Source of the DNA: Muribaculaceae bacterium | Lineage (GTDB): Bacteria; Bacteroidota; Bacteroidia; Bacteroidales; Muribaculaceae | Direction of reading: 5' to 3' | Assembly: GCA_017621225.1 (NCBI GenBank) | Contig: JAGATN010000021.1 | Coordinates: 1-64,000, forward strand | Length of the DNA: 64,000 bases | Shown here: one piece after another, positions 24,006 to 48,208 of the stretch | How positions within the stretch are numbered: position 1 is the first letter of the stretch | Layout of the letters: each line of letters begins with the position of its first letter | The notes under the pieces: generated by a model | Told to the model about the DNA's origin: nothing | The model's database searches: none | What the model saw: the letters and a program-made list of their open reading frames with translations, nothing else | Made by a program: the position numbers and the translations under genes

Positions 24006-24014
24006 ATTATAAAA

Positions 24015-29920: not shown

Positions 29921-29942
29921 AGGAAATGTGAATTTTTTTTGC

Positions 29943-29950
29943 CAACTTTG
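29943..29950 (+). promoter_or_regulatory. Possible -7 box before lpxD
   Basis: CAACTTTG differs from the TAnnTTTG box at one position and lies 38 bases before the lpxD ATG. No -33 element is evident, so lpxD may also be read from the upstream promoter. Confidence 0.35.
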
Positions 29951-29988
29951 CAGATATATTAGGATATCCGATAACCAATCATAACGAA

Positions 29989-31020: not shown

Positions 31021-31043
31021 CCAATCATATTACGGTTTAAAAT

Positions 31044-32426: not shown

Positions 32427-32444
32427 CCTTTATTTTTTAGTAAT

Positions 32445-33221: not shown

Positions 33222-33249
33222 TATAGCCTTAAGGCTTTGACAATATGAA

Positions 33250-33297
33250 ATTTGACCGGCTTGTACATCTGATGTATCAGCCGGTCAAATATTTTAT
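33250..33297. terminator. Terminator after lpxA
   Basis: A 12-pair outer stem (33250-33261 with 33279-33290) continues inward through TACATC/GATGTA and is followed by ATTTTAT. It separates lpxA from the convergent cyclo-ligase gene and probably works for both. Confidence 0.85.
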
Positions 33298-33333
33298 ACG
33301 GTGTCGCGAATGGCGTGGCGGAGTGCGTGCCTA

Positions 33334-33894
33334 TTATCCGCGATTACTTCTTTTGCGTATGTATGTGTGGCTCTCGGTTATCAGTATGTCGACAGGCACG
33401 TCGTATTCATCCGTTTCAATGTCGTCGACTACTTGAAAATCGTAGGCTATGCCTACTCTCAGGGCTTTTGAGCCGGCAAGCAGGCGGTCGTAATAACCTT
33501 TTCCACGGCCCACTCTGTTGCAGTTTCTGTCGTATGCAACGGCAGGCACCACTATCATCTCAATTGACGATATGTCGGTAGTGTCGTCGCCCTGTGGTTC
33601 TTCGATCTGAAACGCACCGAGGCTTAACTTGCTTTGGTCGAACGGCAGTATTTCGAGATTCAATCCATTTACGCGAGGCAGAAAGAAGCTTTTTCGCTTA
33701 TCCCACTTTTTTATGAATTTTATGGTCGAAAGTTCGTCGGGCAAGGAGTGATACATAAGTATGCGATTCGACATTATGAAAGCGGCAAGCTTTTCAAGTT
33801 GGTCAAATACTTTATCGGCGGCTATGGCCTTGTCCTCATTTGTCAGTAAGGCCTTATTGGCCCTTATTCGATGTCGAATCTCATCTTTTTTCAT
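33334..33894 (-). CDS. 5-formyltetrahydrofolate cyclo-ligase
   Basis: This 186-residue cytosolic enzyme converts 5-formyl-THF to 5,10-methenyl-THF with ATP, returning a storage folate to the one-carbon pool used by FolD. The N-terminal basic segment (KKDEIRHRIRANKALL), the MYHSLPDE strand and the ATP-binding VPAVAYDRNCNRVGRGKGYYDRLL motif (about 124-145) are diagnostic. I start at the ATG at 33894; the TTG at 33906 would overlap the protease stop. It begins 8 bases after the S41 protease gene and is probably co-transcribed. Confidence 0.94.
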   Translation of the reverse strand: MKKDEIRHRIRANKALLTNEDKAIAADKVFDQLEKLAAFIMSNRILMYHSLPDELSTIKFIKKWDKRKSFFLPRVNGLNLEILPFDQSKLSLGAFQIEEPQGDDTTDISSIEMIVVPAVAYDRNCNRVGRGKGYYDRLLAGSKALRVGIAYDFQVVDDIETDEYDVPVDILITESHTYIRKRSNRG

Positions 33895-33902
33895 ATCGAG
33901 TG

Positions 33903-35537
33903 TCAATTGTCGGTTACGGCAATGGGATATTTGGCATTGCCTTCGTTGAATTCCTGAAGCGCACGATCGATGGTGGTATCTGATTGGTTCAATACCTTAT
34001 AGTATTCCGATGAGCCAAGGATGTCGCGTGCTATCAGCGCTTTCAATAAATTAACAATTAAGTTTCTCGAAATGTTTATGTAATACCAACGTGGGGCTAT
34101 GTTGCCGTTGGCGTTTGCGTACGTGGCAAATGAATACAAAAGCGAATCTTCATTTGGCAGGAGACTGATCAGCTCGTCGGCCGACTTTGCTTCTTTGAGC
34201 TGATCGCGATTGGCATCGGCAAAGTCAAATGCAAACTTGTGCAACAAACCGGCATTTAGCACCTTGATGTAATACGATGTAAGTCCGGTGGTGTCGTTCG
34301 GAACGTATATGTCGGGCATTATGCCTCCTCCGCCATACACGGGGCGTCCGCCGAGGGTGTGATAGGTCTGAGTGGTGTCGAGCTTCACGCTGTCGCGCGA
34401 AAATCCTTCTCCGTGTTGATATCTTGAATTTATCTCGTTGTCATATGCATCGATGGCACCTCGGGTATATTCCTTTTGTATGCAGCGACCCGAAGGCGTG
34501 TAGTAGCGGCCTGTGGTAAGGCGTATTGCGCTGCTGTCGGATAGCTCGATCTGTCGTTGAACCAAGCCTTTGCCAAACGATCGGCGGCCTACTATAAGTC
34601 CTCTGTCATTATCCTGTATGGCACCGGCGAAAATCTCGCTTGCGCTTGCTGAATATTCGTCGAGCAGCACTATTATGTCCTCGTTCTGGAACGATCCGCT
34701 GCCGTCGCTGCCTACGCTCGTTTCGGAGTACGATGTGCGTCCGTGCGTGGCCACGATGGGTTGCCCTGTCGGAAGGAACTCGTTGGCCATAAGTATGGCC
34801 ATTTCCATGAATCCGCCTGTGTTGCTGCGCAAATCGATCATATATTTCGTGGCGCCTTTTGATTTCAGGTCAACCAATGAATTAAGAAATTCCGAATATG
34901 TAGTGCGTCCGAATTTGTTTACTTTTATGTATCCGATGCTGTCGTTCATTAAATATGAAGCATCGATCGATGTCACGGGGATTTCGCCGCGCGTCACCTC
35001 ATATGTGAATAGTTCGGGAGAGTTTGAACGTTGTATTCCGAGTTTCACCTTGGTATCACGCTCTCCGCGCAGCGTTTTCAGCACTTTTTCCTGTGGCCAT
35101 TTCTGACCTGCTGCCAAAGAGTCGTTTATGGTTATGATTCTGTCGCCGGGAAGCAATCCTACTTTTTCAGACGGGCCACCCGATATTACCTCCAATACCT
35201 TTATGGTATCGGTGAGCATGTTGAACTGTATGCCTATTCCGCAAAATGATCCTTCCAGTTCTTCGTTGACCGATTGTAGCGACTCGGACGGTATGTATGA
35301 CGTGTGTGGATCGAGTTTCGACAATATGTCGGGAATTGATGCTTCTATCAGACTGTCTATGTCGACATCGTCAACGTAATCCGATTCTATTAGCCCCATT
35401 ATGGTGCCTATTTTATCGCTTGACGAATCGTTAAAGGTCGAATTTACAAATCTATTGCCAATCCAAATGCCGGCTCCGAGGGCTGTGGCTACGGTCAAAG
35501 GCATCCAAACCTTGGCTTTTTTTAATTTGTTTGTCAT
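33903..35537 (-). CDS. S41-family C-terminal processing peptidase
   Basis: This 544-residue serine protease resembles CtpA/Prc/tail-specific proteases. An N-terminal membrane anchor (about 12-30) points the enzyme into the periplasm. A PDZ domain follows (about 95-180, GIGIQFNMLTDTIKVLEVISGGP). The protease core has the catalytic serine in LDEYSASASEIFAG (about 296-309) and the lysine in RRSFGKGLVQ (about 320-329). The C-terminal 150 residues are helical. It likely trims or degrades envelope proteins. It precedes the folate cyclo-ligase gene. Confidence 0.94.
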   Translation of the reverse strand: MTNKLKKAKVWMPLTVATALGAGIWIGNRFVNSTFNDSSSDKIGTIMGLIESDYVDDVDIDSLIEASIPDILSKLDPHTSYIPSESLQSVNEELEGSFCGIGIQFNMLTDTIKVLEVISGGPSEKVGLLPGDRIITINDSLAAGQKWPQEKVLKTLRGERDTKVKLGIQRSNSPELFTYEVTRGEIPVTSIDASYLMNDSIGYIKVNKFGRTTYSEFLNSLVDLKSKGATKYMIDLRSNTGGFMEMAILMANEFLPTGQPIVATHGRTSYSETSVGSDGSGSFQNEDIIVLLDEYSASASEIFAGAIQDNDRGLIVGRRSFGKGLVQRQIELSDSSAIRLTTGRYYTPSGRCIQKEYTRGAIDAYDNEINSRYQHGEGFSRDSVKLDTTQTYHTLGGRPVYGGGGIMPDIYVPNDTTGLTSYYIKVLNAGLLHKFAFDFADANRDQLKEAKSADELISLLPNEDSLLYSFATYANANGNIAPRWYYINISRNLIVNLLKALIARDILGSSEYYKVLNQSDTTIDRALQEFNEGNAKYPIAVTDN

Positions 35538-35632
35538 TTTGGAATTTAGAAGATACTATTTTTTGTTGATTAAGAATGTATGCTTTTTTTTTATGCGTCG
35601 TATGAGTGACGGTGGTTTGCTGCCAATGTGTG

Positions 35633-36058
35633 TCAATCCGGTAGATGCACGCATTCAACGTCGGCACGTTTTAATAAATCGATACCGTCGCAAATGCGAT
35701 AGAGTTCGCTGAATACCACTCGCGAAATTCCTGCCTGAATTATTAGTTTGGCGCATTCCATACAAGGCGATGCCGTGACATACAATGTAGATCCGAGACT
35801 CGAATTATTGCTGCGTGCCACCTTGGTTATTGCATTGGCTTCGGCATGCAGTACGTATGGTTTGGTTGTTCCTGTTTCATCCTCGCATACGTTTTCGAAT
35901 TTAGCCGGTGTGCCATTGAATCCGTCAGATATTATCATCTGATCCTTTACCAAAAGAGCACCAACTTGTCGGCGTTGGCAATATGAATTTTCTGCCCATA
36001 TTTTCGCCATACGTAAATATCGGCGGTCGAGCGTTTCCTGCTTGACATTTTGTACCAT
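35633..36058 (-). CDS. dCMP/cytidine deaminase-family enzyme
   Basis: This 141-residue zinc deaminase is most like deoxycytidylate deaminase, which makes dUMP for thymidylate synthesis. The zinc site is complete: HAEANAI (His and the catalytic Glu, about 70-76) and PCMECAK (two Cys, about 97-103). The start is the ATG at 36058 (MVQNVKQETL). An in-frame ATG at 36094 overlaps the -7 box and would lie upstream of the transcript. A 15-base palindrome over the promoter hints at repression. Confidence 0.9.
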   Translation of the reverse strand: MVQNVKQETLDRRYLRMAKIWAENSYCQRRQVGALLVKDQMIISDGFNGTPAKFENVCEDETGTTKPYVLHAEANAITKVARSNNSSLGSTLYVTASPCMECAKLIIQAGISRVVFSELYRICDGIDLLKRADVECVHLPD

Positions 36059-36382
36059 ATCGTAGTGTTTGATCTTTGTACTACAAAGGTACATAGAATT
36101 TATTTAAAAAGTAAGCATCGATTTGTAAAAATAAACATTATCCGATAATTTAATTCAACCCACAGATGTATAATGATAACAATCTATGTTTTTGTCAGAT
36201 TCGGATGGCGTGGATGATGGTGCTGATCACGTTTTAAATGAATTGTGTGTGGGGCGACTACCGCTTTGCGGGGCATTTAACTTTTTTAGACGTATTTTGT
36301 CGTTTATTTCACTACAAATCAGAACTATAATGTCTTTTGTGCGGTTGGAATTATAAACCTTTATTATTTTTATTCGATTACT
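36059..36382. other. Divergent control region, dCMP deaminase / sigma factor
   Basis: No gene is seen in this 324-base gap. It holds the deaminase promoter with its palindrome (36074-36091). A small hairpin CCGC-TTT-GCGG (36261-36271) followed by a T-run at 36281-36287 may be a weak terminator remnant. The AT-rich leader of the sigma factor gene lies to its right. A short frame on the minus strand here is unconvincing. Confidence 0.5.
36074..36091 (-). promoter_or_regulatory. Promoter box with overlapping palindrome
   Basis: TACCTTTG (minus strand, 36091-36084) is the -7 box of the deaminase gene. It overlaps the palindrome CTTTGTA-C-TACAAAG (36074-36088). A repressor bound there would cover both the box and the transcription start near 36077. 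Confidence 0.6.
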
Positions 36383-36889
36383 ATGAACACCGAAACTTTT
36401 CAAAATCGATTGCTGGCACTTCAAGATAATTTATTGAATTTTGCCTTTCTCCTTACATCGAATAAGGATGATGCATACGACCTGCTTCAAGACACTACTT
36501 TGAAAGCTCTTGATAATGAGGATAAATACAAAGAAAATACCAATTTTAAAGGATGGGTGTTCACCATAATGCGTAATATATTCATAAATCAATATAGGCG
36601 TTTGGTGCGCTCGGCCACCATAATCGATCAGTCGGATGATATGTATCGCCTTAACGTTTCAGGTGATTCGGGCCTGTATTCGCCTGAAGATTCATATGCC
36701 GTAAAAGAGATGACCGATGTGATAAGATCATTTTCCGATGATTACCGCATTCCGTTTTCGATGCACATAGCCGGCTATCGATATGCCGAAATTGCTGAAT
36801 ACATGCATTTGCCGCTCGGCACCATCAAAAGCCGCATTTACTATGCCCGTAAGTCGTTGCAAAACAAGCTTAGCGATTATGTGGATTAA
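36383..36889 (+). CDS. ECF-type RNA polymerase sigma factor
   Basis: This 168-residue sigma-70 family factor has only regions 2 and 4. Region 2 includes DDAYDLLQDTTLKAL (about 28-42) and FKGWVFTIMRNIFINQYRR (about 55-73). Region 4 has the helix-turn-helix YAEIAEYMHLPLGTIKSRIYYARK (about 135-158). Unlike many Bacteroidota ECF factors it is not next to a FecR-type anti-sigma or SusC/D pair; the convergent neighbour is rmuC. Its control is therefore not evident from context. Confidence 0.92.
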   Translation: MNTETFQNRLLALQDNLLNFAFLLTSNKDDAYDLLQDTTLKALDNEDKYKENTNFKGWVFTIMRNIFINQYRRLVRSATIIDQSDDMYRLNVSGDSGLYSPEDSYAVKEMTDVIRSFSDDYRIPFSMHIAGYRYAEIAEYMHLPLGTIKSRIYYARKSLQNKLSDYVD

Positions 36890-36921
36890 GAAACGGTTCG
36901 ACGATAAATGTTAATTGCAGG

Positions 36922-36944
36922 GTCGCATATCATTGCGACTTTTG
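36922..36944. terminator. Possible compact terminator with rmuC stop in the loop
   Basis: A 6-pair GTCGCA/TGCGAC stem (36922-36927 with 36934-36939) is followed by TTTTG on the plus side. It lies between the convergent sigma factor and rmuC genes. The rmuC stop codon (36930-36932) is inside the loop. Confidence 0.45.
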
Positions 36945-38258
36945 ATCCGACAGGCGTTTGCTTGCCTTTACGCCCATTTCGCGCAACTTCTCGGCTCGCG
37001 ATACAAGATTCCCGGTGCCGTTGCACAATTTGTTCATGGCCGACGAGTAGGCCGAGTTTGCGCTTGATAATGCCTTGTCGATTTTTGACATGTCGTCGAT
37101 GAACGATACGAATTTATCGTACATTTTTCCGCTCATTTCAGCTATTTCGATGGCATTTTGGGTTTGCCGGTCGTGTCGCCATAATTGAGCTATCAATCTC
37201 AATGCCGATACGAGATGCGTGGGCGATACTATGATCACACGCTTGTCGTACGCTTTCTGCCATAATGAATTGTCAAGCTGCATGGCTGCCATATAAGCCG
37301 CTTCGTTTGGTATGAACATCATTACGAAGTCCGTGCGGTTTTTTACGAGGAAATCTTGATAGCGTTTGTCGTTAAGCTCGTCGATGTGCCGGCGTATCGA
37401 AGCCAGGTGCTCGTGTCCGTATCGCTCCTTCTCCTCGATGCTTTCCGAATTCACGTATGCCACAAACGATTTAAGCGACACTTTCGAGTCGATTATCATG
37501 GCTTTGCCGTCGGGATAATGTATCACTACGTCCGGACGCAAGGTGTGTCCGTTTTCGTTGCGGGCCGATACGTTGTCCATTATTTTGCAGTCTTGAACGG
37601 TGAATTCAATCCCCTTGGTAAGCCCCGACTTTTCAAGTATCGTTTCGAGCACGAGCTCGCCCCAGTCGCCTTGTGTTTTTGAGTTGCCGCGCAGTGCGCT
37701 TGACAGCTCCTTTGCCTCCTGTCCTATTGATTGGTTGGTCGAAATCAATTCTTTTATTTTTTCTTCGAGCGAAAAACGTTCGCGGGCTTCAGCCGAATAG
37801 CAGTCGGTTATTGATTTTTTGAATTGCTCGATGTTTTCGCGCAGCGGTGTCAGTATTTCGGTTAGTTTTGATTCATTTTGTTGGCGGAGGGTGATGGCGT
37901 GATTGTGCAGCACTTCATTGGCTAACGTCTTGAATCGTTCTTCCGACAGGCGTTGCTGTTCCTCATACAACTTTTTCGATTGATCTTCCTTTATTCTGAA
38001 ATGTTCATTGGCCTGCGACATCTGTTCGCGATGCGAGTGCTCCAATATCGATATTTTTTCCAAATACGACTTTTCGGTAAGTTCAAGTTGTTTGCGTGCT
38101 GCGATTTCGTTTTTCAACGCTTGTTGGTCGGCAATGCGTAACTTTTCCTCCAGAATGCTGTTTTTGCCGTTTAGTTTTATTATTTGTTGCCAGGCCAGTA
38201 CGCAAATCACGCCCAAGATCAAGACAAATGCCAATAGTATTATTGTTGATGTGTTCAT
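36930..38258 (-). CDS. rmuC: RmuC-family DNA recombination protein
   Basis: This 442-residue protein has an N-terminal membrane anchor (about 5-24) and a long coiled coil (about 28-190). The RmuC domain with a PD-(D/E)xK-like nuclease fold follows (about 195-390: GDWGELVLETILEKSGL, TLRPDVVIHYPDGKAMIIDSKVSLKSF). In E. coli RmuC limits recombination at inverted repeats. The family call is firm and the biochemical role is inferred. It has a promoter at 38285-38315 and converges with the sigma factor gene. Confidence 0.94.
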   Translation of the reverse strand: MNTSTIILLAFVLILGVICVLAWQQIIKLNGKNSILEEKLRIADQQALKNEIAARKQLELTEKSYLEKISILEHSHREQMSQANEHFRIKEDQSKKLYEEQQRLSEERFKTLANEVLHNHAITLRQQNESKLTEILTPLRENIEQFKKSITDCYSAEARERFSLEEKIKELISTNQSIGQEAKELSSALRGNSKTQGDWGELVLETILEKSGLTKGIEFTVQDCKIMDNVSARNENGHTLRPDVVIHYPDGKAMIIDSKVSLKSFVAYVNSESIEEKERYGHEHLASIRRHIDELNDKRYQDFLVKNRTDFVMMFIPNEAAYMAAMQLDNSLWQKAYDKRVIIVSPTHLVSALRLIAQLWRHDRQTQNAIEIAEMSGKMYDKFVSFIDDMSKIDKALSSANSAYSSAMNKLCNGTGNLVSRAEKLREMGVKASKRLSDQKSQ

Positions 38259-38284
38259 TGAAGTGTTGAGTTGATAAATTTATG

Positions 38285-38315
38285 TAAAGTTAAGAATAAT
38301 GGATTATGCTTGCAA
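38285..38315 (-). promoter_or_regulatory. Promoter of rmuC
   Basis: Minus-strand TTG (38315-38313), 20 bases, TAACTTTA (38292-38285). Only the last base differs from the consensus box. A leader of about 20 bases is expected. Confidence 0.6.
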
Positions 38316-38375
38316 TGAAATTGGATATTATTGATTAATTTTACACTTTGAATTCATCACAATAAGTCGCTTAAA

Positions 38376-39386
38376 ATGAAATTGAAGCAAGTTTTTATCG
38401 TTGCAGCAGTGTCAATGGCCGTGTCGGTAAACGCCGAAGATGGCATAACAATACCTAAACCAAATATTCACGGCACATTGAGGCCGAGATACGAATATGC
38501 CGTAGACGATGGCGATATGAGATTTCAGGTTCGAGATGCCAGAGTGGGAGTTGACGGGTCTTTATGTCGTATGTTTGACTACAAAGCAGAGGTGGAGTTG
38601 TGCGACAAAGGCTCGATGAAAACTCTCGATGTGTGGGGGCGAGTTAATTTTGCGCCGCAATTCAAGGCGCAGCTCGGCAATATGCGGATGCCTTTCAACA
38701 TCGGTTCGATGAGAGCGCCGCATCAATATCTGTTTGCCGATCGAGCTACTACTGACAAGCAGGTTGCCAGTCCTCGAAACGTAGGCTTGAAGTTGATATA
38801 TTCGCCCGCGGCAGTGCCACTCACCATTGAAGGAGGCGTGTTTAACTCAAAGTCCAATTCAAATCAGCAGGTGTGGCAAGATAAAATGGCTGCCGCTGCT
38901 AAGGCGCGATACCGCATTGGCGATATGTCGGTCATTGCCGGGTTTCAATCGTTGATGCCGGGTAATGTGCGCGCCAATCATTTTTCAGGTTCGTTGACAT
39001 GGGAAACCTCATCGTGGCTTTTGGAAGGGGAGTATGTATACAGGCATTATGACGGAGATGCAGCCCCCGAGGTACATGCATATGATTTTATGGCCAATTA
39101 TGGCATTCCCGTAAAATTGGGTTGCTTCAATCGGCTGTCATTTCAAGGACGTTGGGATGGCATTACCGATTATTCGGATGGCGTGACTATGGATGATGAC
39201 GGCCATTTGGCCATAACCACTCCGGCTTTCAATCGCCTCACAGCCGGAGCCACGATATCGTACGTTATGGCAAACGTTCGTTGCGACTTCAGGCTTAATT
39301 ACGAAAATTATTTTTATCATTCCGGCGTTACCGCGCCCGACAACGACCGCAATAAGCTCGTGGCCGAACTGGTGGTGCGATTTTAA
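38376..39386 (+). CDS. Phosphate-selective porin O/P-like protein
   Basis: This 336-residue predicted outer-membrane porin has a signal peptide ending SVNAE (about 1-21). The early strands (HGTLRPRYEYAVDDGDMRFQVRDARVGVDG), the YKAEVELCDKGSMKTLDVWGRVNF segment and QLGNMRMPFNIG are typical of the OprO/OprP family. The C terminus LVAELVVRF is a clean barrel signature. At 336 residues it is short for a 16-strand porin, though the family varies. Substrate selectivity is not readable. It is divergent from rmuC. Confidence 0.85.
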   Translation: MKLKQVFIVAAVSMAVSVNAEDGITIPKPNIHGTLRPRYEYAVDDGDMRFQVRDARVGVDGSLCRMFDYKAEVELCDKGSMKTLDVWGRVNFAPQFKAQLGNMRMPFNIGSMRAPHQYLFADRATTDKQVASPRNVGLKLIYSPAAVPLTIEGGVFNSKSNSNQQVWQDKMAAAAKARYRIGDMSVIAGFQSLMPGNVRANHFSGSLTWETSSWLLEGEYVYRHYDGDAAPEVHAYDFMANYGIPVKLGCFNRLSFQGRWDGITDYSDGVTMDDDGHLAITTPAFNRLTAGATISYVMANVRCDFRLNYENYFYHSGVTAPDNDRNKLVAELVVRF

Positions 39387-39419
39387 CTACATTTTGGGTC
39401 GTGGTATTGGATAAAATGG

Positions 39420-39427
39420 TACCTTTG
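39420..39427 (+). promoter_or_regulatory. -7 box of the hydrolase-ligase cluster
   Basis: TACCTTTG is an exact box 17 bases before the hydrolase ATG. TTTG at 39393-39396 is a possible -33 element with a long 23-base spacer. It would drive the alpha/beta hydrolase, MurF-like, Ddl-like and probably EamA genes. Confidence 0.65.
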
Positions 39428-39444
39428 CAATATAAAATGTACTT

Positions 39445-40206
39445 ATGGAGAAAACCATCGAAATAGGCGATGTTTCGCTTCATTATTCGGTTATAGGTAA
39501 TGGAACGCCAATGATTTTGATGCATGGATGGGGGTGTAACCACACCACCCTTGCATTGATAGAGCGCATTGCAGCAGAATTTCATACCGTTTACAATGTC
39601 GATTTTCCGGGATTTGGAGAGTCCCCCGAGCCGTCAAGCGTCTGGGGCATTGAGGAATACACCCGATTGATTGAAGATTTCGTTAAAGCTTTGGGATTAA
39701 GCAATCCGATATTGCTCGGTCACTCTTTCGGTGGCAGGGTGGGATTGCTATTCTCCTCGCGCAATGAGGTGTCGAAGTTGATATTGGTAGATGCAGCCGG
39801 AATAAAGCCAAAGCGTCCGTTGAGCTATTATATAAAGGTATATTCCTTCAAATTGATGAAGCTTGCCAATAATTTGATTTATGGCAAGGAAAAAGCCCAA
39901 GCGCGCATCGAAGCGGCGCGCGCCAAGCGCGGCTCGGCCGACTATAACAATGCATCGCCACGTATGCGTTCGATATTGAGCAAGGTGGTCAATGAAGATT
40001 TGTGTCACGTGATGCCATCGATTAAGGCTCCCACGTTGCTGATATGGGGCGAAAACGATACGGCGACGCCTATTCGCGATGCGCGTAAAATGGAGCGCTT
40101 GATTCCCGATGCCGGCCTCGTTTCGTTTGGCGGTTGCGGTCATTATAGTTTCCTTGATAATCCGTCGCAGTTTGCCGCCGTGCTTCGTAGCTTTTTATCA
40201 AATTAA
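39445..40206 (+). CDS. Alpha/beta hydrolase in a Mur/Ddl-like cluster
   Basis: This 253-residue alpha/beta-fold hydrolase has no signal peptide, so it is cytosolic. The oxyanion loop is MHGWGCNHTTL (about 25-35). The nucleophile serine is in the GHSFGGR elbow (about 92-98). The acid is in WGENDTATP (about 204-212) and the base in GGCGHYSFLDNP (about 229-240). The triad is complete. It is followed after 22 bases by a membrane Mur-ligase-like gene and then by a Ddl-like gene. It could therefore cleave or recycle a peptide, ester or lactone made by those ligases (inference). Similarity alone does not give a substrate. Confidence 0.88.
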   Translation: MEKTIEIGDVSLHYSVIGNGTPMILMHGWGCNHTTLALIERIAAEFHTVYNVDFPGFGESPEPSSVWGIEEYTRLIEDFVKALGLSNPILLGHSFGGRVGLLFSSRNEVSKLILVDAAGIKPKRPLSYYIKVYSFKLMKLANNLIYGKEKAQARIEAARAKRGSADYNNASPRMRSILSKVVNEDLCHVMPSIKAPTLLIWGENDTATPIRDARKMERLIPDAGLVSFGGCGHYSFLDNPSQFAAVLRSFLSN

Positions 40207-40228
40207 AAAATTAATGTAATAATATTGT

Positions 40229-41851
40229 ATGATGAGTTTTATTGAATCAGCTGATTTTATAACCGTCGTAACCGTTTTGGTGGCTTTGGTCACGCTCATC
40301 AACGTGTTGGTTGAGTATAAACGCGATCTTATGATGCTGCAACAAAACTCGTATCGCAATGAACGGTACGAAAAATGGTTGCGCGTAAGTGGCGACACTA
40401 CGACCGGAGTCCGGCTGGCGGCATTGGTGGTTTTGATGATATCGTTGGTGCGGTTTGTCGACATACGTTGGGCTATGGGGCTAATTGCCGTATTTTCGGG
40501 CGGATGCACCATATGGCGCTTGAAAATGAAATATAAAAAGCCACTTGTGTGGACCAACCGCGCCAAGCGCATATATACTGTAATGCTGGCCATATCGTTT
40601 ATTGTGGCATTTGTGGTTTATGCCGTTGCCTCTGCTTACACTTCCGGGCTTGAACCATTGTTCATATTTACGTTGTCGTGGCTTTTTATGTATTGTTGTT
40701 CGCATGGGGTGATTCTCGTATCAAACTGGCTTTTAAAGCCTGTTGAAAAAAGAATCAACAAGGGATATTACGACGATGCCGCTCGAATATTGGCATCAAT
40801 GCCCGATCTCCGTGTAATAGGAGTGACCGGAAGCTACGGCAAGACGAGCACGAAGCACTATCTCCAGCGCATATTAAGCGAAAAGTACGACGTACTGATG
40901 ACTCCGGGCAGCTATAACACTACGATGGGGGTGATACGCACGATACGAGAGGTGCTTAAGCCCTATAACGAAGTGTTCATCGTTGAAATGGGAGCGAAGC
41001 AGCCCGGCGATATCGATGAGATATGCAAATTGGTTCATCCCGAAATAGGAATAGTGACGGCCGTTGGCGAACAACATCTTGAATCGTTCGGAAACATTGA
41101 GAATGTGCAGAAAACCAAGTTTGAGCTTATCGACTCATTGCCCGAAAACGGATTGGCCGTGGTAAACGATGATTTTGAATACGTAGCCAATAGAAAGGTG
41201 TCGAACGTGGAATGCGTGCGTTATGGCATTAAAAATGCCGGCAATGCCGATTATACGGCCATCAACATCGAATATGGCACGCATGGCACTACTTTCGTCG
41301 TTGTCGGTAATGGAAAGACGTTGAATTTGTCGACCAAGCTTGTAGGTGAATGCAATATATCCAATCTGATAGCGGCGGTTATAGTTGCTCTGTATCTTGA
41401 AGTGCCCGAGGATAAAATAAGATATGCAGTTGAACGCATAGAGCAAGTGGAACATCGCCTAAACTTGAAGCGCACCCCCGGAGGCATAACCATAATCGAT
41501 GATGCATTCAATTCTAATCCTACCGGATCGGCAATGGCTCTTGACGTATTGTCGAGAATGAAAGGTGGCAAGAGAATAATAATAACGCCCGGAATGATAG
41601 AGCTCGGTGATCGTCAGTATGAATTGAACAAGCAATTCGGCCTTAATATTGCTAAGAGCGTTGATGTGGCCATAGTGGTGGGCGAATACAACCGTGCTGC
41701 AATACTCGAAGGGTTGTCAGACGGTCATATGCCTGATGCCAACGTTCATGCGGTGCCTACATTCGCCGCTTCGCAGCAATTGTTGGCTCGTATTGCGATG
41801 CCAGGCGATACGGTGTTGTATGAAAATGACCTTCCCGATACATTTAAATAG
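40229..41851 (+). CDS. Membrane-anchored MurF-like peptide ligase
   Basis: This 540-residue protein has four or five hydrophobic segments in the first 170 residues, followed by the central and C-terminal domains of a Mur ligase. The P-loop is TGSYGKTSTKH (about 200-210), then VEMGAKQPGDIDEI, the TAVGEQHLESFG loop and IIDDAFNSNPTG (about 416-427, the MurF-type DDAYNANP motif), and the C-terminal Rossmann fold (RIIITPGMIELG). The N-terminal domain that binds UDP-MurNAc-peptide in true MurF is absent and replaced by membrane helices. It probably ligates an amino acid or dipeptide to a membrane-associated acceptor. The next gene could supply that dipeptide. Confidence 0.85.
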   Translation: MMSFIESADFITVVTVLVALVTLINVLVEYKRDLMMLQQNSYRNERYEKWLRVSGDTTTGVRLAALVVLMISLVRFVDIRWAMGLIAVFSGGCTIWRLKMKYKKPLVWTNRAKRIYTVMLAISFIVAFVVYAVASAYTSGLEPLFIFTLSWLFMYCCSHGVILVSNWLLKPVEKRINKGYYDDAARILASMPDLRVIGVTGSYGKTSTKHYLQRILSEKYDVLMTPGSYNTTMGVIRTIREVLKPYNEVFIVEMGAKQPGDIDEICKLVHPEIGIVTAVGEQHLESFGNIENVQKTKFELIDSLPENGLAVVNDDFEYVANRKVSNVECVRYGIKNAGNADYTAINIEYGTHGTTFVVVGNGKTLNLSTKLVGECNISNLIAAVIVALYLEVPEDKIRYAVERIEQVEHRLNLKRTPGGITIIDDAFNSNPTGSAMALDVLSRMKGGKRIIITPGMIELGDRQYELNKQFGLNIAKSVDVAIVVGEYNRAAILEGLSDGHMPDANVHAVPTFAASQQLLARIAMPGDTVLYENDLPDTFK

Positions 41852-41884
41852 AAAAATAAAAGCATAAGTAAAATCATAAGAATT

Positions 41885-43072
41885 ATGAAAACAAATATCG
41901 GTGTGTTTTTTGGCGGCCGTTCAACCGAACATGAAATATCAGTGATTTCTGCTTCACAGGCCATGAATGCCATAAATCGTGAAAAATATGATGTTACTCC
42001 AATATATATAAGCAAACAGGGTCGATGGTACACGGGCGATGCGTTGCTCGACGTGGCAAACTATCGCGATACCTACAAGCTTATAGCCGGTTGCGAAGAA
42101 GTGTACATGTCGCCCGAATTTGGCGATTACAAGCTGTATCGTCGAAACAAAAAGTTGTTTGGCAATCCGGTGGTATCGGAACTTGACGTGGTTATCCCCG
42201 TTTTGCATGGGTCGAATGGCGAAGACGGCATATTTGAGGGCGTTCTGGAGTCGATAGGCATTCCGTATGCAGGCTGCAACACATTGTCGAGCGCCAACGG
42301 TATGGATAAGATCACAATGAAGATGATAATGCAGGCCTGCGACATCCCGGTGGTTGACTACGTATGGTTTACGGATAAGCAATGGTTTGCAAAACGCGAC
42401 GAACTGATAAACAGCATTGAGACCAAGCTTGGATATCCGGTGATAGTGAAGCCTGCCAATCTTGGCTCGAGCGTCGGAATCGGGCGCGCGCGCGATCGCG
42501 AACAATTGATAGAGCGCATCAATGATGCCGAGCAATATTCTACCAGAATCATTGTGGAGCACATGGTGGAAGATCTCAAAGAAATCAACTGCTCGGTATT
42601 GGGCGACTGCGACGAGTATATAACTTCGGTATGCGAGGAGCCTATTAAAAGCGGCGAAATATTGTCGTACGAAGACAAATACATGGGCGGAAGCAAAGGT
42701 GCAAAGGGCATGCAGGCATCGCAAAAGCGCATTCCCGCCGATCTGCCCGATGAAGTTAGCGATAGGATCCGATTCCTTGCCGGTGAAACGTTCAGGGTGC
42801 TTTCATGCCATGGCGTTAGCAGGGTTGACGTGATTATGGACGTTTCCGATGGCAATATATATGTAAACGAAATAAACACCATTCCCGGATCGCTCTCGTT
42901 CTACCTGTGGGAAGCTACCGGAATACGATTTGATCAGCTTATGGATCGATTGGTAAAGCTTGCATTAAAACGTAAGAGAGAGCAATCGTCCAAAACCGTT
43001 TCGTACGATCAGAACATATTCAGCCTCGGTGGTGGCGTAAAAGGCACCAAAGGCTTTAAAATGCGTAAATAG
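41885..43072 (+). CDS. Ddl-like ATP-grasp ligase
   Basis: This 395-residue ATP-grasp enzyme is related to D-alanine-D-alanine ligase. Motifs: FFGGRSTEHEISVISA (about 8-23), HGSNGEDGIFEGVLE (about 109-123), VKPANLGSSVGIGRA (about 184-198), the omega-loop segment YEDKYMGGSKGAKGMQ and the metal site NEINTIPGSLSFY (about 335-347). It is longer than typical housekeeping Ddl proteins (about 310-370), with a basic tail from about 360. No ftsA/ftsQ/murC neighbours are present, so this is likely a paralogue for a special dipeptide feeding the MurF-like ligase (inference). A true Ddl role cannot be excluded. Confidence 0.85.
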   Translation: MKTNIGVFFGGRSTEHEISVISASQAMNAINREKYDVTPIYISKQGRWYTGDALLDVANYRDTYKLIAGCEEVYMSPEFGDYKLYRRNKKLFGNPVVSELDVVIPVLHGSNGEDGIFEGVLESIGIPYAGCNTLSSANGMDKITMKMIMQACDIPVVDYVWFTDKQWFAKRDELINSIETKLGYPVIVKPANLGSSVGIGRARDREQLIERINDAEQYSTRIIVEHMVEDLKEINCSVLGDCDEYITSVCEEPIKSGEILSYEDKYMGGSKGAKGMQASQKRIPADLPDEVSDRIRFLAGETFRVLSCHGVSRVDVIMDVSDGNIYVNEINTIPGSLSFYLWEATGIRFDQLMDRLVKLALKRKREQSSKTVSYDQNIFSLGGGVKGTKGFKMRK

Positions 43073-43095
43073 AGAAGGTTAAGCCAACGATTCGT

Positions 43096-44040
43096 ATGGG
43101 CTTAAAGGTAAAAGGTTATGTGCTTGGCGCGATAGCCGCCGCTACTTATGGCATGAATCCATTGTTTGCTTTGCCGTTGTACTCGGCCGGTATGACTGTG
43201 GATTCAGTGCTTTTCTTTCGCTATCTGTGCGCAATTCCAATTCTTGGCTTGATGATAAAATTGCGCGGACGAAGCTTCGCGGTTTCATCCAAGCAATTTG
43301 GCGCGCTTGTCATATTCGGGTTCATGATGGCATTATCGTCGCTTATGCTGTTTATGAGTTACAAATACATGGATGCCGGAATTGCGTCGACGATACTTTT
43401 CGTATATCCCGTGATGGTGGCGTTGATAATGGCAACGGTGTTTCACGAAAAAGCATCAACGCTGTTGATATGCTGCATGGCATTGTCCATATCGGGCATA
43501 GGGATGATGTACAAGTCGCCCGAATCGTCGTCAGGGGCATCATTCAGCATAACCGGAATGGTGCTCGTAATCATTTCGGCTCTCACGTATGCCATCTATA
43601 TAGTGTGGGTCAACAAGTCGTCGGTCAAATCATTGCCTACGCTCGTCATATCATTCTATGTATTGTTGTTTGGTGTCATCTTGTTCGCTATACGCCTTTG
43701 CATTAACGGTAGCATTGAGTATCCGTCGTCTGACCAATGGCACTTATGGCTGTGCATATTGGCTTCGGCCGTTTTCCCTACCGTGATATCGTTCGTATGT
43801 ACTACGTCGGCAATACAATATGTCGGATCGACTGCCACCGCCATATTGGGATCGCTTGAACCAGTGACGGCAGTGGTGATAGGGGTGTCGGTGTTTGATG
43901 AAGTGCTTACGCCTGCCGATTTGATAGGTATCATAATGATACTTACGGCCGTTATAATGGTGGTTGGCGGGTCGAGCGTGCCCGCTGCAATTATGCGTAT
44001 TCGCCGTATGTTTCCACGCTTGCCCCACAAGTCCGTATGA
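43096..44040 (+). CDS. EamA/DMT-family transporter
   Basis: This 314-residue inner-membrane protein has ten hydrophobic segments in two EamA repeats (first near 8-140, second near 155-295; VLIISALTYAIYIVWVNKS begins the second). Signature parts are GYVLGAIAAATYGMNPLFALPLY and the GSLEPVTAVVIGVSVFDEVLTPADLIG end motif. Members export amino acids, nucleotides or other metabolites. It follows the Ddl-like gene by 23 bases and may export the product of that cluster or simply be a co-transcribed neighbour. Confidence 0.85.
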   Translation: MGLKVKGYVLGAIAAATYGMNPLFALPLYSAGMTVDSVLFFRYLCAIPILGLMIKLRGRSFAVSSKQFGALVIFGFMMALSSLMLFMSYKYMDAGIASTILFVYPVMVALIMATVFHEKASTLLICCMALSISGIGMMYKSPESSSGASFSITGMVLVIISALTYAIYIVWVNKSSVKSLPTLVISFYVLLFGVILFAIRLCINGSIEYPSSDQWHLWLCILASAVFPTVISFVCTTSAIQYVGSTATAILGSLEPVTAVVIGVSVFDEVLTPADLIGIIMILTAVIMVVGGSSVPAAIMRIRRMFPRLPHKSV

Positions 44041-44075
44041 AGCGTTTGCGGGCGGTTTTTTCGCCTACGTGTTAT

Positions 44076-44112
44076 CCGAATTTTTATTATTCGGTTTTTT
44101 TGAGTAAGTTTG
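44076..44112 (+). promoter_or_regulatory. Terminator stem abutting the next promoter
   Basis: CCGAAT/ATTCGG (44076-44081 with 44089-44094) followed by seven T is a short terminator for the EamA gene. Directly after it TAAGTTTG (44105-44112) is an exact -7 box for the next gene. The T-run supplies the upstream T-rich element (TTT about 21 bases before the box). Confidence 0.65.
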
Positions 44113-44136
44113 CGCACAACTAATAATCATACTGAA

Positions 44137-44790
44137 ATGAATGAGAAAAATGAAGCGTTGTTGTCGCTTGCATTTGAGGTTGAAGGACTGATAGTGCTTC
44201 TGGAGCGACGAGCCGACAGGACTCCGGCGGAAGTGGTTGAGTTGCTTAAGGAAAAAGTGGCTAAACTGAAATCGAGCGTCGACGTATTGTCGTGTGTCAA
44301 GAGCTATTCGTCGGTTGCTGCGTCAGCCGAATATGAGGAGCGTCAGGATGCTGCCGGAAAACCGTCGCAACTGGTTGCTGCGGTCGTGGAACCCGAACCG
44401 AAGCCGGTTGTCAAGATTGCCGAACCAAAACCGGTTGTCAAGATTCCCGTTCCGGAACCCGAATCGAAGAAACCGCAAGAGCCAATCATTACGCCGATCG
44501 TAGAGAAGATATCGCAACGTCAGGCTCCCGAAAAGCATGTGGCTCCCGTGAAGGATATAGAAACGTTGGGCGATATGCACAAGGTTTTCACGCTAAACGA
44601 TAAATTCAGATTCCGTCGCGAGTTGTTCAATAACAATGATACTGACTTTCAGGATGCGCTTAACGTGGTCAAGACCATGAGCAGTTTGGACGATGCCAAG
44701 GATTATTTCTATAATGATCTGTGCTGGGATTCTGAAAATGAGGATGTAAAGGACTTCATTGAAGTTATTTCCGGTTATTTCAGCCATTAA
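44137..44790 (+). CDS. Conserved hypothetical protein with Pro-rich linker
   Basis: This is a 217-residue cytosolic protein of no family I can name. A helical N-terminal domain (about 1-60, LLSLAFEVEGLIVLLERR) is joined to a compact C-terminal domain (about 145-217) by a repetitive linker. The linker has two direct copies of EPKPVVKI (about 85-105). The C-terminal domain contains DMHKVFTLNDKFRFRRELFNN, FQDALNVVKTMSSLDDAKDYF and W-S-E-acidic segments. I recall a similar domain as a conserved Bacteroidales hypothetical. Start taken at ATG 44137; the TTG at 44110 overlaps the -7 box. rsmI follows after 8 bases, so the two are probably coupled. Confidence 0.8.
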   Translation: MNEKNEALLSLAFEVEGLIVLLERRADRTPAEVVELLKEKVAKLKSSVDVLSCVKSYSSVAASAEYEERQDAAGKPSQLVAAVVEPEPKPVVKIAEPKPVVKIPVPEPESKKPQEPIITPIVEKISQRQAPEKHVAPVKDIETLGDMHKVFTLNDKFRFRRELFNNNDTDFQDALNVVKTMSSLDDAKDYFYNDLCWDSENEDVKDFIEVISGYFSH

Positions 44791-44798
44791 AGAAAAAT

Positions 44799-45524
44799 AT
44801 GTCGGGTAAGCTATATATGGTTCCTACTCCGGTCGGCAATTTGGCGGATATGTCGCCGCGTGCCATCGAAGTATTGCGTCAGGTGAATTTGATATTGGCT
44901 GAAGATACGCGCACGTCAGGCGTTTTGATGAAGCATTTCGGCATTGAAACTCCGATGATGAGCCATCACAAGTTCAATGAACACAGCACTTTGGCGCCAA
45001 TAATGGATCGTTTGATGGCCGGTGAAACCATTGCATTGGTAACTGATGCCGGAACTCCGGGCATTTCCGATCCGGGATTCTTGCTTACGCGCGAATGCCG
45101 CAGGCTCGACATCGTTGTTGAAACACTTCCGGGGCCTACCGCATTCGTTCCGGCGTTGGTCAATTCTGGCTTGCCGTGCGAGCGATTTTGTTTTGAGGGA
45201 TTTTTGCCGGTAAAGAAGGGCAGGGCTACCCGATTGGAAGAATTGGCTGCCGATTCGCGTACCACTATAATATACGAATCACCGTTGCGGCTCGTAAAAA
45301 CGCTTATGCAGCTTATGGATGTTTGCGGTGGCGAACGCGAAGCATCAGTGTCGCGTGAAATATCGAAGAAGTACGACACGACCGTGCGCGGAACGCTGAG
45401 CGAGCTTGTCGATTTTTTTAAGGAAAACAATCCCAAGGGTGAAATTGTTATTGTATTGTCGGGGAAAAAGGATGATATTGAAAAGCCTCGTCATCGAAAC
45501 AAATATAAGTTAGATGAAGAATGA
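44799..45524 (+). CDS. rsmI: RsmI, 16S rRNA C1402 2'-O-methyltransferase
   Basis: RsmI methylates the ribose of C1402 in the decoding centre using S-adenosylmethionine. The 241-residue protein has the tetrapyrrole-methylase fold: VPTPVGNLADMSPRAIEVL (8-26), LAEDTRTSGVLMKHF, LVTDAGTPGISDPGF (about 79-93) and GPTAFVPALVNSGLP. The IIYESPLRLVKTL and ISKKYDTTVRG segments follow. It is slightly shorter than the E. coli enzyme at the C terminus. It follows the hypothetical gene by 8 bases. Confidence 0.96.
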   Translation: MSGKLYMVPTPVGNLADMSPRAIEVLRQVNLILAEDTRTSGVLMKHFGIETPMMSHHKFNEHSTLAPIMDRLMAGETIALVTDAGTPGISDPGFLLTRECRRLDIVVETLPGPTAFVPALVNSGLPCERFCFEGFLPVKKGRATRLEELAADSRTTIIYESPLRLVKTLMQLMDVCGGEREASVSREISKKYDTTVRGTLSELVDFFKENNPKGEIVIVLSGKKDDIEKPRHRNKYKLDEE

Positions 45525-45560
45525 TCATCCAAACAACAACGTTTAACTAAAAGTCATATT

Positions 45561-46424
45561 ATGAAATTATTATTACCTACCACGTTGGCTGCATTGTCGA
45601 TTTTGACATCTTGTGTAGCGAAGGATAAACTTGATAAAGCTGAAGAACAGAACGACGTGTTGAACTCTCAGCTACAAACCACGCTTGCCACCCAAGATAG
45701 CTTGTTTGTGCTTATAAACGATATTTCCGACGGTATGGCACAGATAAAGAATCTTGAAAGCATAGTGTCGACGCCGGGCAACTTAAGCGGCGATGGCATC
45801 TCGACAAAGTCGCAAGTGCGCAATGACATGATTGCAATTCAGCAGGCTTTGCAGCAGCGTCGCGAACGGTTGGATCAGCTTGAGGAACGATTAAAGACCG
45901 TTTCGGGTAAAAATACGGCATTGCTTAAGACCATCGAAAATCTGAAGTCGCAGATAGCAGAACAGGAAACGGAAATTGCCACCCTCAACAATCAGTTGGC
46001 AGCGGCAAACGTTAAGATTGTGTCGTTAGGCGCTGCGGTCGACTCGTTAAGCAGTAGCGTGGAGGCGGAGAAAGTGGTGAGAGAAGAAGCCCAACAACAG
46101 GCTCAGCAACTTACCGACGAGCTCAATACTTGCTACTATGCGATAGGAACCAAGGGCGAACTTCAGAAAAATCAAATAATAAAGACCGGATTCCTTCGCA
46201 AAACCAAGATACTTGAAGGCGATTTTGAAAAAGATTATTTCACCACGTCCGACAAACGATCGCTGAATGAAATAGCTCTGCATTCAAAAAAGGCTAAAGT
46301 AATAACCAACCAGCCTAAGGATAGCTATGAAATAGTGGATAATGGCGGTCAGAAGGTATTGAAGATAACGAATCCTACAAAATTCTGGAGCTTGTCGAAT
46401 TTCCTCGTAATACAGGTCGACTGA
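45561..46424 (+). CDS. Coiled-coil lipoprotein, possibly Cbp1-like
   Basis: This is a 287-residue lipoprotein. The lipobox is ILTSC (Cys18). A very long heptad-rich coiled coil spans about 24-195 (ERLDQLEERLKTVSGKNTALLKTIENL style, later VREEAQQQAQQLTDEL). A globular C-terminal part follows (about 195-287: CYYAIGTKGELQKNQIIKTG, GFLRKTKILEGDFEKDYFTT). The layout reminds me of the Bacteroides Cbp1 collagen-binding adhesin family, but that is from memory and collagen binding is not shown. The rod shape suggests it spans or projects from the outer membrane. A terminator follows. Confidence 0.8.
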   Translation: MKLLLPTTLAALSILTSCVAKDKLDKAEEQNDVLNSQLQTTLATQDSLFVLINDISDGMAQIKNLESIVSTPGNLSGDGISTKSQVRNDMIAIQQALQQRRERLDQLEERLKTVSGKNTALLKTIENLKSQIAEQETEIATLNNQLAAANVKIVSLGAAVDSLSSSVEAEKVVREEAQQQAQQLTDELNTCYYAIGTKGELQKNQIIKTGFLRKTKILEGDFEKDYFTTSDKRSLNEIALHSKKAKVITNQPKDSYEIVDNGGQKVLKITNPTKFWSLSNFLVIQVD

Positions 46425-46481
46425 CATAGATACACATAGATTCGTCCGATAAACTCTTTTTTGATCGGCTGAAAAAAGATA

Positions 46482-46516
46482 GGGCCGGCTCCTGCATGGG
46501 TGCCGGCCCGAATTTT
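46482..46516 (+). terminator. GC-rich terminator
   Basis: An 8-pair stem GGGCCGGC/GCCGGCCC (46482-46489 with 46502-46509) is followed by GAATTTTAT. It closes the rsmI-lipoprotein unit and marks the left edge of the accessory patch. Confidence 0.8.
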
Positions 46517-46602
46517 ATCCGACATCAAAACGTTTTGTCTGACAGCAATATGTAAATCGCAGAGTCATCGGTAGACACTAATGAAATCATACGAAAATTT
46601 CG

Positions 46603-46610
46603 TAACTTTG
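46603..46610 (+). promoter_or_regulatory. -7 box before the broken regulator
   Basis: TAACTTTG is an exact box 22 bases ahead of the remnant ATG. It probably once drove the LuxR regulator and now drives the TPR-HTH gene, with the remnant as leader. No clear -33 element. Confidence 0.6.
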
Positions 46611-46631
46611 CATGTATAAAGACCAACCACA

Positions 46632-46819
46632 ATGAAAGCTCCCGACTATTTTTTCATATCCGATAACGAGGTTTGGCTCCTTGACGAGCTTGATTACAGC
46701 CGTGTGTCGGAATATGTGAATGTGGTGGAGGCTTTCTCGCTCCATCAATCAGAGCGTTTATATCATCGACTACAAATCTTGCATTTTGAAGAAGAATGAG
46801 ATTGCACAATTTTCATAAA
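46632..46819 (+). pseudogene. Remnant of a LuxR/PAS regulator, frameshifted
   Basis: The ATG at 46632 opens a frame reading MKAPDYFFISDNEVWLLDEL... and EYVNVVEA. This matches the start of a Bacteroidales regulator family that has an N-terminal PAS-like domain and a C-terminal LuxR helix-turn-helix (family recalled, not searched). Near 46736-46740 the frame is lost. Shifting by one base restores SRSINQSVYIIDYKS, the expected continuation, until TAA at 46817-46819. So one base was gained in a TTT run and everything beyond about residue 65 is missing. The next gene starts inside the remnant at 46796, sharing ATGA with the original-frame stop. Confidence 0.75.
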
Positions 46820-48208
46820 GCTTTTATGGTAATGGCATTAGCGATATTTTTATCGTTAATGGCTTGTAACGGTGGCCATGTTTCTGAAATTTATCGTGGC
46901 TTGCAAAAGGCTGAAGAATTTATCTCAGATGATAAAAAAGAAGATGCTCTTATACAGCTTTTTGAACTTGAGAATAGCATTGATGCAACTACTCCCGACA
47001 CTTTGAAATATAAGGTGCTGTCGCGAATCGGCGGCATATATTATTCTGACTTAAAAGAGGATAAGGCTGATGAATATTTTAAGAAAGCATTAGCCGTTGC
47101 ACGTAAATGTGGCAATGGTTATTTGAGCGTTGCATTGTGGAACAGATGTCTGACCTTATCTGACAATGATTCGATTTTGATATATCTTAAGGAATGTCAT
47201 GATATCAGTCACGCCTCCGGAACAAGATATACCGAAGCGATGTCGGGAATTAATCTTGCAAATGCATACATCCAAATCGGAAATATGGATAAGGCGCATG
47301 AGGTACTTGACAATATGGATCATGTGGTTGGCAACGACAGTGTGCTTGAAATTGAACTGACAAATGCCAGGCTGAATTATCTTATTATCAATAAGAGTTT
47401 TGACAAGGCAAAAGAAATACTTAAAGCGCAGGATGTAAGAAATTTGAATTTATATGGCCGGTTTTCCCGCTATCGCAATTTATATGCTATTGAAATTGGG
47501 AATGGAAGGTATGATAAAGCTATTGAATATCGTGATTCTATTGACGAAATAAAGAGCGAGATTGACTCAATAAGTTTTGATGAAAAGCTGTCAAAAACAG
47601 AGTTGGAGTTTGCGTCGAAACTCGATAAAGAGAAGAAGGATAGAGACATTGCCATCATAATCAGTTTGTGTGTCATCATTTTATTATCTGCATTTCTCTT
47701 TGCGGGAATCAAACGTCGACTTATTATGAGAAAGCAGATTGAGCTGAACGAACAAATATTAAAGCTAAATCTTAGAATAGCTCAACTTACCGAATCTCAT
47801 AATGAGGGTGACACGCCTGTCAACTATGTTGGTGCCGACATTCAACCCGAAGTTATTGAAAAGCTGAGACTGAATAAAGAAATGTTCATAAGTAAGCCGA
47901 TATATGGTCGGTTGAAGCAACTGAATTTGAAGCGCGATTCTGATGCGATAGACAAAAAAGCAGTTAATGAAATCTTGGAATGTGTGATAGGGCAGTTTGC
48001 CGATGTATGTTCAACCATCCGGCAATTATATCCGGGTATGACCTCTGACGATGTGTTGTATTGCTCAATAATCTATGTCGGATTCTCTAAAGAGGTAGCA
48101 TCCGTGGCTTTCGGGTCGAGTGAGGATGCACTTCGCCGACGTAAGAGCAGAATCAAACAAAAGCTTCCGCCGGCTATTTTTGATGCCATTTTTGGGACAA
48201 AAGCGTGA
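46796..48208 (+). CDS. TPR lipoprotein-like membrane regulator with HTH
   Basis: This 470-residue protein is built like the DUF6377 regulator at 6373 but is only distantly similar. It has a signal segment with possible lipobox SLMAC (about Cys24) and TPR-like helices (about 30-270). One membrane segment spans about 285-305 (IAIIISLCVIILLSAFLFAGI). A cytoplasmic coiled stretch and a LuxR-like helix-turn-helix end follow (about 415-465: PGMTSDDVLYCSIIYVGFSKEVASVAF). The membrane helix linking outside TPRs to an inside DNA-binding end argues for a one-component sensor. It probably controls the outer-membrane barrel gene 94 bases downstream. Confidence 0.82.
   Translation: MRLHNFHKAFMVMALAIFLSLMACNGGHVSEIYRGLQKAEEFISDDKKEDALIQLFELENSIDATTPDTLKYKVLSRIGGIYYSDLKEDKADEYFKKALAVARKCGNGYLSVALWNRCLTLSDNDSILIYLKECHDISHASGTRYTEAMSGINLANAYIQIGNMDKAHEVLDNMDHVVGNDSVLEIELTNARLNYLIINKSFDKAKEILKAQDVRNLNLYGRFSRYRNLYAIEIGNGRYDKAIEYRDSIDEIKSEIDSISFDEKLSKTELEFASKLDKEKKDRDIAIIISLCVIILLSAFLFAGIKRRLIMRKQIELNEQILKLNLRIAQLTESHNEGDTPVNYVGADIQPEVIEKLRLNKEMFISKPIYGRLKQLNLKRDSDAIDKKAVNEILECVIGQFADVCSTIRQLYPGMTSDDVLYCSIIYVGFSKEVASVAFGSSEDALRRRKSRIKQKLPPAIFDAIFGTKA

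Follow-up and report, generated by a model that had tools for sequence, protein, structure and literature searches.

Textbooks describe MurF as a soluble enzyme that completes UDP-MurNAc-pentapeptide (uridine diphosphate-N-acetylmuramic acid-pentapeptide) in the cytosol. Which enzyme carries out this step, and on what acceptor, is the question raised by a four-gene locus of a Muribaculaceae bacterium (GenBank assembly GCA_017621225.1), found in a stretch of 64,000 nucleotides of contig JAGATN010000021.1 that is called the window here. The locus encodes a MurF-like ligase with membrane helices (membrane MurF) next to a long D-alanine--D-alanine ligase (Ddl). To judge from its domains, motifs and distribution, the membrane MurF is very probably the working MurF of the window bacterium. 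It is moderately probable that this protein and the long Ddl replaced the ordinary Bacteroidales MurF/Ddl pair and act on a membrane-presented tripeptide. In genomes of at least two lineages, the sole MurF appears to belong to a distinct subfamily that lacks the UDP-binding domain and is embedded in the membrane.

All four open reading frames (ORFs) were present on the + strand with gaps of 22-33 nucleotides, and the ORFs and Pfam matches agreed with the domains that an earlier note on this DNA had claimed for four closely spaced genes. The features of the locus are as follows.

39445..40206, + strand: alpha/beta hydrolase, 253 amino acids (Pfam Abhydrolase_1, 85.9 bits)
40229..41851, + strand: membrane MurF-like ligase, 540 amino acids (Pfam Mur_ligase_M and Mur_ligase_C; C-terminal ENDLPD)
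40229..40798, + strand: membrane domain of the MurF-like ligase, residues 1-190 (hydropathy peaks, loop motifs)
41885..43072, + strand: long Ddl, 395 amino acids (Pfam Dala_Dala_lig_N and Dala_Dala_lig_C)
43096..44040, + strand: EamA-family transporter, 314 amino acids (Pfam EamA)
44076..44094, + strand: terminator-like hairpin and T run directly after the EamA gene (consensus match)

Architecture of the membrane MurF

Bacterial muramyl ligases are described in PMC11915815 as having three homologous structural domains of which the N domain binds the precursor, and the window protein departs from this plan in that it has no precursor-binding N domain. Mur_ligase_M covers residues 199-387 (145.5 bits) and Mur_ligase_C residues 409-530 (55 bits), while residues 1-190 matched no Pfam domain and hence no recognised UDP-binding N domain. 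In a hydropathy scan with a 19-residue window and a threshold of 1.6, four transmembrane-type peaks were found within residues 1-190 (10-28, 61-79, 118-136 and 146-164), which bears out the suggestion that membrane helices take the place of the UDP-substrate domain. One further weak peak (1.71) lies later, in the Mur core, and the helices are judged from such peaks to number about five. Two to five peaks were observed within the first 240 residues of 22 relatives, and none in the single stand-alone MurF tested, in the Ddl or in the hydrolase. The membrane domain also carries loop motifs, which read QQNSYR..RY.RW and YKKPLV.T.R..R in the window family; the elements Q...Y...W and K-K-P-L..T.R..R are common, with exceptions, to the family and to relatives outside its class.

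The remainder of the protein resembles MurF. The best-matching solved structures in a sequence search were MurFs, only over residues 184-519, and the membrane MurFs retain the P-loop, EMG, the active-site His and Lys, D-D-[AT]-[FY]-N-x-N-P and ELG. The window protein reads DDAFNSNP, a variant of the MurF D-x-Y-N-A-N motif, and MIELG, and a pattern of this type was found in all 30 loci listed (22 distinct genes). Compared with MurF proper (TIGR01143; E. coli 1gg4), the middle and C domains, the P-loop, the Glu, His and Lys residues, ELG and the YNAN-like FNSN are shared, whereas the window protein has no N domain, has helices, ends in NDLPD and scores below the model cut-off. This NDLPD stands where MurF has K-[GA]-S in 30/30 loci listed (22 distinct genes, including a faecal contig described below) and in 79 of the 80 named family loci, the sole exception being a shorter ORF. 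For comparison, 13 stand-alone MurFs were picked without a motif filter, and each of them carried YNAN (YNANP in 11), E-[LM]-G (ELG in 12, EMG in one) and K-[GA]-S. In three of the 13 (L255, L257 and L258), the active-site Lys was replaced by Glu.

The core of the window protein is 26-35% identical to the stand-alone MurFs compared. In a tree rooted with MurE, a flagged long branch that leaves the deep branching order unsure, the membrane MurFs of the family, of one genome from another family (G057) and of genomes outside the class formed one clade with support of 99/99, apart from the stand-alone MurFs and from fusions of MurF with alanine racemase (Alr). From motifs and tree, the membrane MurF is probably a distinct MurF subfamily, with membrane helices for the UDP-binding domain and NDLPD for KGS.

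MurF and Ddl complements of the genomes

In the window assembly (2.53 Mb, 93.8% complete), PF08245 was found at six Mur-type places including the window gene. Three lie in one wall-gene region on contig C23 and were labelled MurE, MurD and MurC by their lengths and neighbours; these genes are of ordinary length and near mraY. The other two are a 437-residue ORF, probably FolC, and an 830-residue MurF-Alr fusion, so that no stand-alone MurF was found in the assembly by this search. The fusion (PRK11930) shares the Mur ligase fold and the same genomes with the membrane MurF, and differs in its N-terminal region, in which no helices were noted, in its fused racemase, in the loss of YNAN and ELG, and in a K-G near its end. 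Reading of 24 fusions (19 from the family and five from outside it) revealed that E-[LM]-G was missing in 24/24, as was YNAN, whose place is taken by YNSD, YTSD or still poorer versions. The middle domain was shortened (135-194 against about 202 residues) in 7 of the 19 family fusions, a share that gives no rate since five of the 19 were chosen for partial matches, and the C part of the G062 fusion was shortened to 130 from 143 residues. Mean identities among the family fusions were 0.47 for the Mur middle and 0.41 for the C part against 0.63 for the racemase part, and among the five from outside 0.49 and 0.48 against 0.51; these figures of decay overstate the average member because 5/19 family fusions were picked for partial matches. 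On its motifs, the MurF domain of the fusion is a degenerate second candidate in the window family.

The window Ddl is the sole PF01820 match in the assembly. PF07478 gave five further matches, all of them weak at 27.6-41.7 bits; these fall in ORFs of 1077-1083 residues, probably carbamoyl-phosphate synthase, and in one of 401 residues. Full-length homology and both Pfam domains are shared with the DdlA-like long type (7u56, 3i12), and the protein exceeded the cut-offs of D-Ala-D-Ala ligase subfamily models (337 against 262; 286.5 against 245.65) and passed NF002528; on the models compared, its product may be D-Ala-D-Ala. Ddl and MurF pairs also occur in some van clusters, and a vancomycin-type resistance module with altered precursors (D-Ala-D-Lac or D-Ala-D-Ser) was considered accordingly. 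A VanG-type model does score 239 bits, yet against 495, and VanA gives 162 against 775; no Van-type model was reached among the 25 families listed out of 52, no VanX- or VanH-type domain occurred among 10 neighbouring proteins scanned with Pfam, and the cluster Ddl, which passes the D-Ala-D-Ala ligase models, is the only one found in the genome. Such a module was rejected as highly improbable.

Among family genomes at least 90% complete, the membrane MurF was found in 36/37 (one cut at a contig edge), a stand-alone MurF in one (G071) and both in none. Among equally complete genomes of other families, 23/24 have a stand-alone MurF and the 24th, G057, has the membrane form. Exactly one Ddl (PF01820) was found in 53 of 61 relatives (37 of the window family) and never two, and the eight without Ddl were all less than 90% complete. 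Ddl frames measure 393-438 residues in the family, 397 in G057 and 322-400 in other families of the order. Beside its ordinary MurF, the exceptional G071 carries a short Ddl, which the tree places with the other short Ddls; MurF and Ddl therefore differ together.

A larger family sample of 225 genomes, with the membrane MurF called at E <1e-130, gave it in 173 of the 177 that lie outside genus g39, with no match in the other four. In genus g39 it was called in 4/48, while 38 matched only at 1e-46 to 1e-54, as would be expected of ordinary MurF, and six, G071 included, did not match at 1e-40. Genus g39 is accordingly a natural system for the MurF switch. The four membrane MurFs of this genus are more divergent; one of their genomes, G612, has two matches, and G521 has three among the matches listed.

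The phylum was sampled in one set of 392 genomes, searched both for the membrane MurF and for MurF over its curated cut-off. The membrane MurF was found in 87, namely the window genome and 86 that share only the phylum with it and so belong to one or more other classes, and MurF over the cut-off in 298, with no overlap between the two. Genomes in which MurF matched only below threshold were the same as those with the membrane MurF, save G461, whose partial membrane MurF gave no match at 1e-60, and G285, which has a sub-threshold match and no membrane MurF. The curated model at its own cut-off consequently leaves the membrane-MurF genomes without any MurF. No MurF match at 1e-60 was found in 7/392. 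G163, G208, G261, G380, G392, G447 and G285 yielded no MurF above the cut-off and no membrane MurF matching at 1e-60, and may be gaps or further variants.

Since the curated cut-off can miss a MurF (9/10 controls pass), 20 of the 86 genomes from outside the class were looked at more closely. In 20/20 the membrane MurF was the sole MurF-type match at 1e-40 and no fusion was found; the exception, a second match of 152 bits in G158, coincides with its MurE. The dcw (division and cell wall) region was read in five of the outside-class genomes. FtsI, MurE, MraY, MurD, FtsW, MurG and MurC were in order in two. A simple comparison left one or more of these genes unrecognised in the remaining three, and a murF was recognised in none of the five regions. 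Each of the 20 genomes has one Ddl, in frames of 402-733 residues. The window Ddl is 38-43% identical to 20 Ddls from outside the class and 24-29% identical to 10 short Ddls from other Bacteroidales or G071. In the Ddl tree, the family Ddls join the outside-class Ddls and not the short Ddls of their own order, and the MurF tree has the same split. The matching splits, together with the pattern in G071, fit a joint exchange of MurF and Ddl.

Several observations weigh against a replacement of this kind. The window assembly is itself just 93.8% complete, and if the second match in G612 is an ordinary MurF, both forms can coexist. The P-loop, Glu, His and Lys are retained in 24/24 fusions, and the C-terminal K-G-[AS] that is missing from the membrane MurF is kept in the 6/6 fusions looked at; because the ATP-site residues and K-G are kept, residual MurF activity is possible where the fusion is intact, the window genome included. 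The window protein scores 241 bits against the TIGR01143 cut-off of 288.6, an imperfect limit that one of ten control genomes giving a MurF match also fell below. K-[GA]-S, constant in the stand-alone MurFs, is swapped for NDLPD in the membrane MurF. In MurE, the corresponding region is where the incoming amino acid is bound, and the incoming group might therefore differ. Finally, a conserved hydrolase partner, described below, is left unaccounted for by the proposed mechanism.

Some of these points would suit the proposal of the earlier note, in which a parallel Ddl/MurF-like pair adds a dipeptide to another membrane acceptor (a lipid, a decoration or a small peptide) and the MurF-Alr fusion serves the wall: NDLPD stands for K-[GA]-S in the membrane MurF while the fusion keeps K-G and the ATP-binding motifs, and the hydrolase partner is conserved. 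The pair as such was confirmed, with both Pfam domain sets present in adjoining genes. However, the only Ddl found sits in the cluster, 20/20 outside-class genomes yielded no fusion and no second MurF at E 1e-40, 0/392 phylum genomes hold both the membrane MurF and MurF over the cut-off, and the fusion lacks two MurF motifs besides having the shortened middle domains mentioned above, whose share is not a rate. A parallel pair is thus improbable and, since only one Ddl and no stand-alone MurF were found, was rejected as the principal explanation. The terms orphan and parallel were dropped with it. The earlier note had also reasoned that these would be the housekeeping enzymes if no other ddl or murF existed in the genome; this is borne out for ddl, of which one was found, and largely for murF, where the other MurF-like domain belongs to the fusion without the two motifs.

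Acceptor and order of the pathway

Replacement of the ordinary pair leaves the acceptor to be considered. Since the UDP-binding domain is missing and transmembrane helices are found where it would sit, the acceptor most likely lies at the membrane, in line with the membrane-bound acceptor foreseen earlier. Whether it is lipid-linked is evenly balanced, and the analogy used is MurT. MurT has no N domain and works on lipid II, and the authors of PMC6113224 argue that a UDP-binding domain would not be needed there and would probably collide with the membrane. The membrane MurF likewise is a Mur ligase without the UDP-binding N domain and has a hydrolase-type second partner, as MurT has in GatD. 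MurT differs from it in its N terminus, which is short and flexible and no membrane domain, and in amidating D-Glu. Furthermore, GatD is a glutamine amidotransferase whereas the window partner is an alpha/beta hydrolase, and the window protein scores 29 bits with the MurT model against a cut-off of 800.

As these genomes yielded a single Ddl and no second MurF, D-Ala-D-Ala is the simplest incoming group to assume, and the motifs suggest a ligase activity that would join it. In the mechanism proposed, Ddl would make D-Ala-D-Ala; MraY, and MurG, would produce lipid I- or lipid II-tripeptide; and the Mur core of the membrane MurF would activate the tripeptide carboxyl with ATP and join D-Ala-D-Ala to it at the membrane. 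Extended to a re-ordered pathway in most Muribaculaceae and many families of at least one other class, the model is put forward tentatively and at somewhat less than even: MraY would move the tripeptide, no UDP-MurNAc-pentapeptide would be formed, an integral-membrane MurF with a dedicated hydrolase partner would add D-Ala-D-Ala to lipid I or lipid II, and the gut family would have exchanged MurF and Ddl together. If true, common gut bacteria run a core, drug-targeted pathway in a different order, and they should escape inhibitors directed to the UDP-binding site of MurF.

The main rival is a tethered but working MurF that still uses UDP-MurNAc-tripeptide, its helices tying the enzyme near MraY and its loops or a partner protein holding UDP-MurNAc. 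The replacement evidence applies to it equally, and MurC, MurD and MurE genes of ordinary length lie near mraY in the window genome and were recognised in most of the five outside loci. A partner carrying a separate N domain (PF01225) was not seen in 14 genomes, where all matches fell in ORFs of 458-889 residues, in a search that was insensitive and also missed the N domain of the fusion. A split MurF was set aside on the same insensitive test. In addition, the domain swap sits where the membrane would lie in the lipid II-directed MurT (PMC6113224). Taken together, a tethered enzyme using the soluble precursor is considered rather unlikely, and addition to a membrane-presented tripeptide is preferred.

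Neighbouring genes and distant relatives

Conservation of the neighbours was followed in named relatives from a contig scan, the best 80 of at least 433, with counts covering loci that had room on the contig. Most of these 80 records were filed under Muribaculaceae and its genera (including Muribaculum caecicola), Porphyromonadaceae, Bacteroides and Bacteroidales, and a few under Pseudoflavonifractor, Alistipes, Barnesiella, Prevotellaceae and Bacteroidaceae. Under a strict rule, the hydrolase adjoins the membrane MurF in 67/78 loci; in the rest, five overlap it by 14-22 nucleotides, one lies about 270 nucleotides off, one lies kilobases off and four are absent from the locus. Ddl adjoins the membrane MurF in 70/71. 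The gene order hydrolase, membrane MurF, Ddl is far above chance, and the membrane MurF has in the hydrolase a conserved accessory partner. Outside the class, 17 loci were read, in which the hydrolase was found up to 1.1 kb upstream in 11 and not seen in six, and Ddl was seen in 0/17. EamA is next in line in just 3/69 loci, so the exporter that the earlier note counted in the cluster lies outside the conserved unit and is incidental.

The window hydrolase has the nucleophile motif GHSFGGR (Ser94) and a shared GS.DY, and the invariant Asp205 and His233 complete a candidate triad. In an alignment including distant relatives, the hydrolases have in common a lid region (GS.DY or SS.DY, then M[RK] and V.[NTG]) and GHS[FN]GGR, and these features suggest something beyond a chance esterase neighbour.

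The expectation of a similar gene order in other gut bacteria was upheld by at least one case. MT835503.1, an unverified human faecal contig filed as 'Bacteriophage sp.', holds hydrolase, membrane MurF and Ddl in a row within the stretch 22630-35988, with identities to the window proteins of 34%, 30% and 34%, respectively. Its neighbours are a NadD-type/HD gene, an ECF (energy-coupling factor) transporter component, a TsaD-family gene and an isocitrate/isopropylmalate-type dehydrogenase. On this gene content, it is probably bacterial chromosome, probably of Bacillota. Spread by mobile elements was considered as well. Among 66 plasmid records with a match none covers 80% of the query, a viral-contig set gave 51 pattern matches with no relative confirmed, and 2/28 matching records of a phage collection cover 80%, one of which was read and looks bacterial in gene content. 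A defence or phage module was likewise rejected, with no PADLOC match and with PHROG matches limited to two esterase/lipase families for the hydrolase only. No publication on the membrane MurF was recognised in the literature searched, which excludes most subscription journals and all preprints.

Among flanking signals, a match to a Bacteroidales-type promoter consensus was found at 39393-39427; the window holds 6 such matches against 3.1 expected, which is not clearly more than chance. Terminator-like sites in the region, 8 against 6.1 in shuffles, are also not clearly above chance, and no RNA family reached its gathering score at positions 36000-48000. At 44110-44790 of the window, a 226-residue ORF without a Pfam domain is flanked by the genes for EamA and for an RsmI-like methylase.

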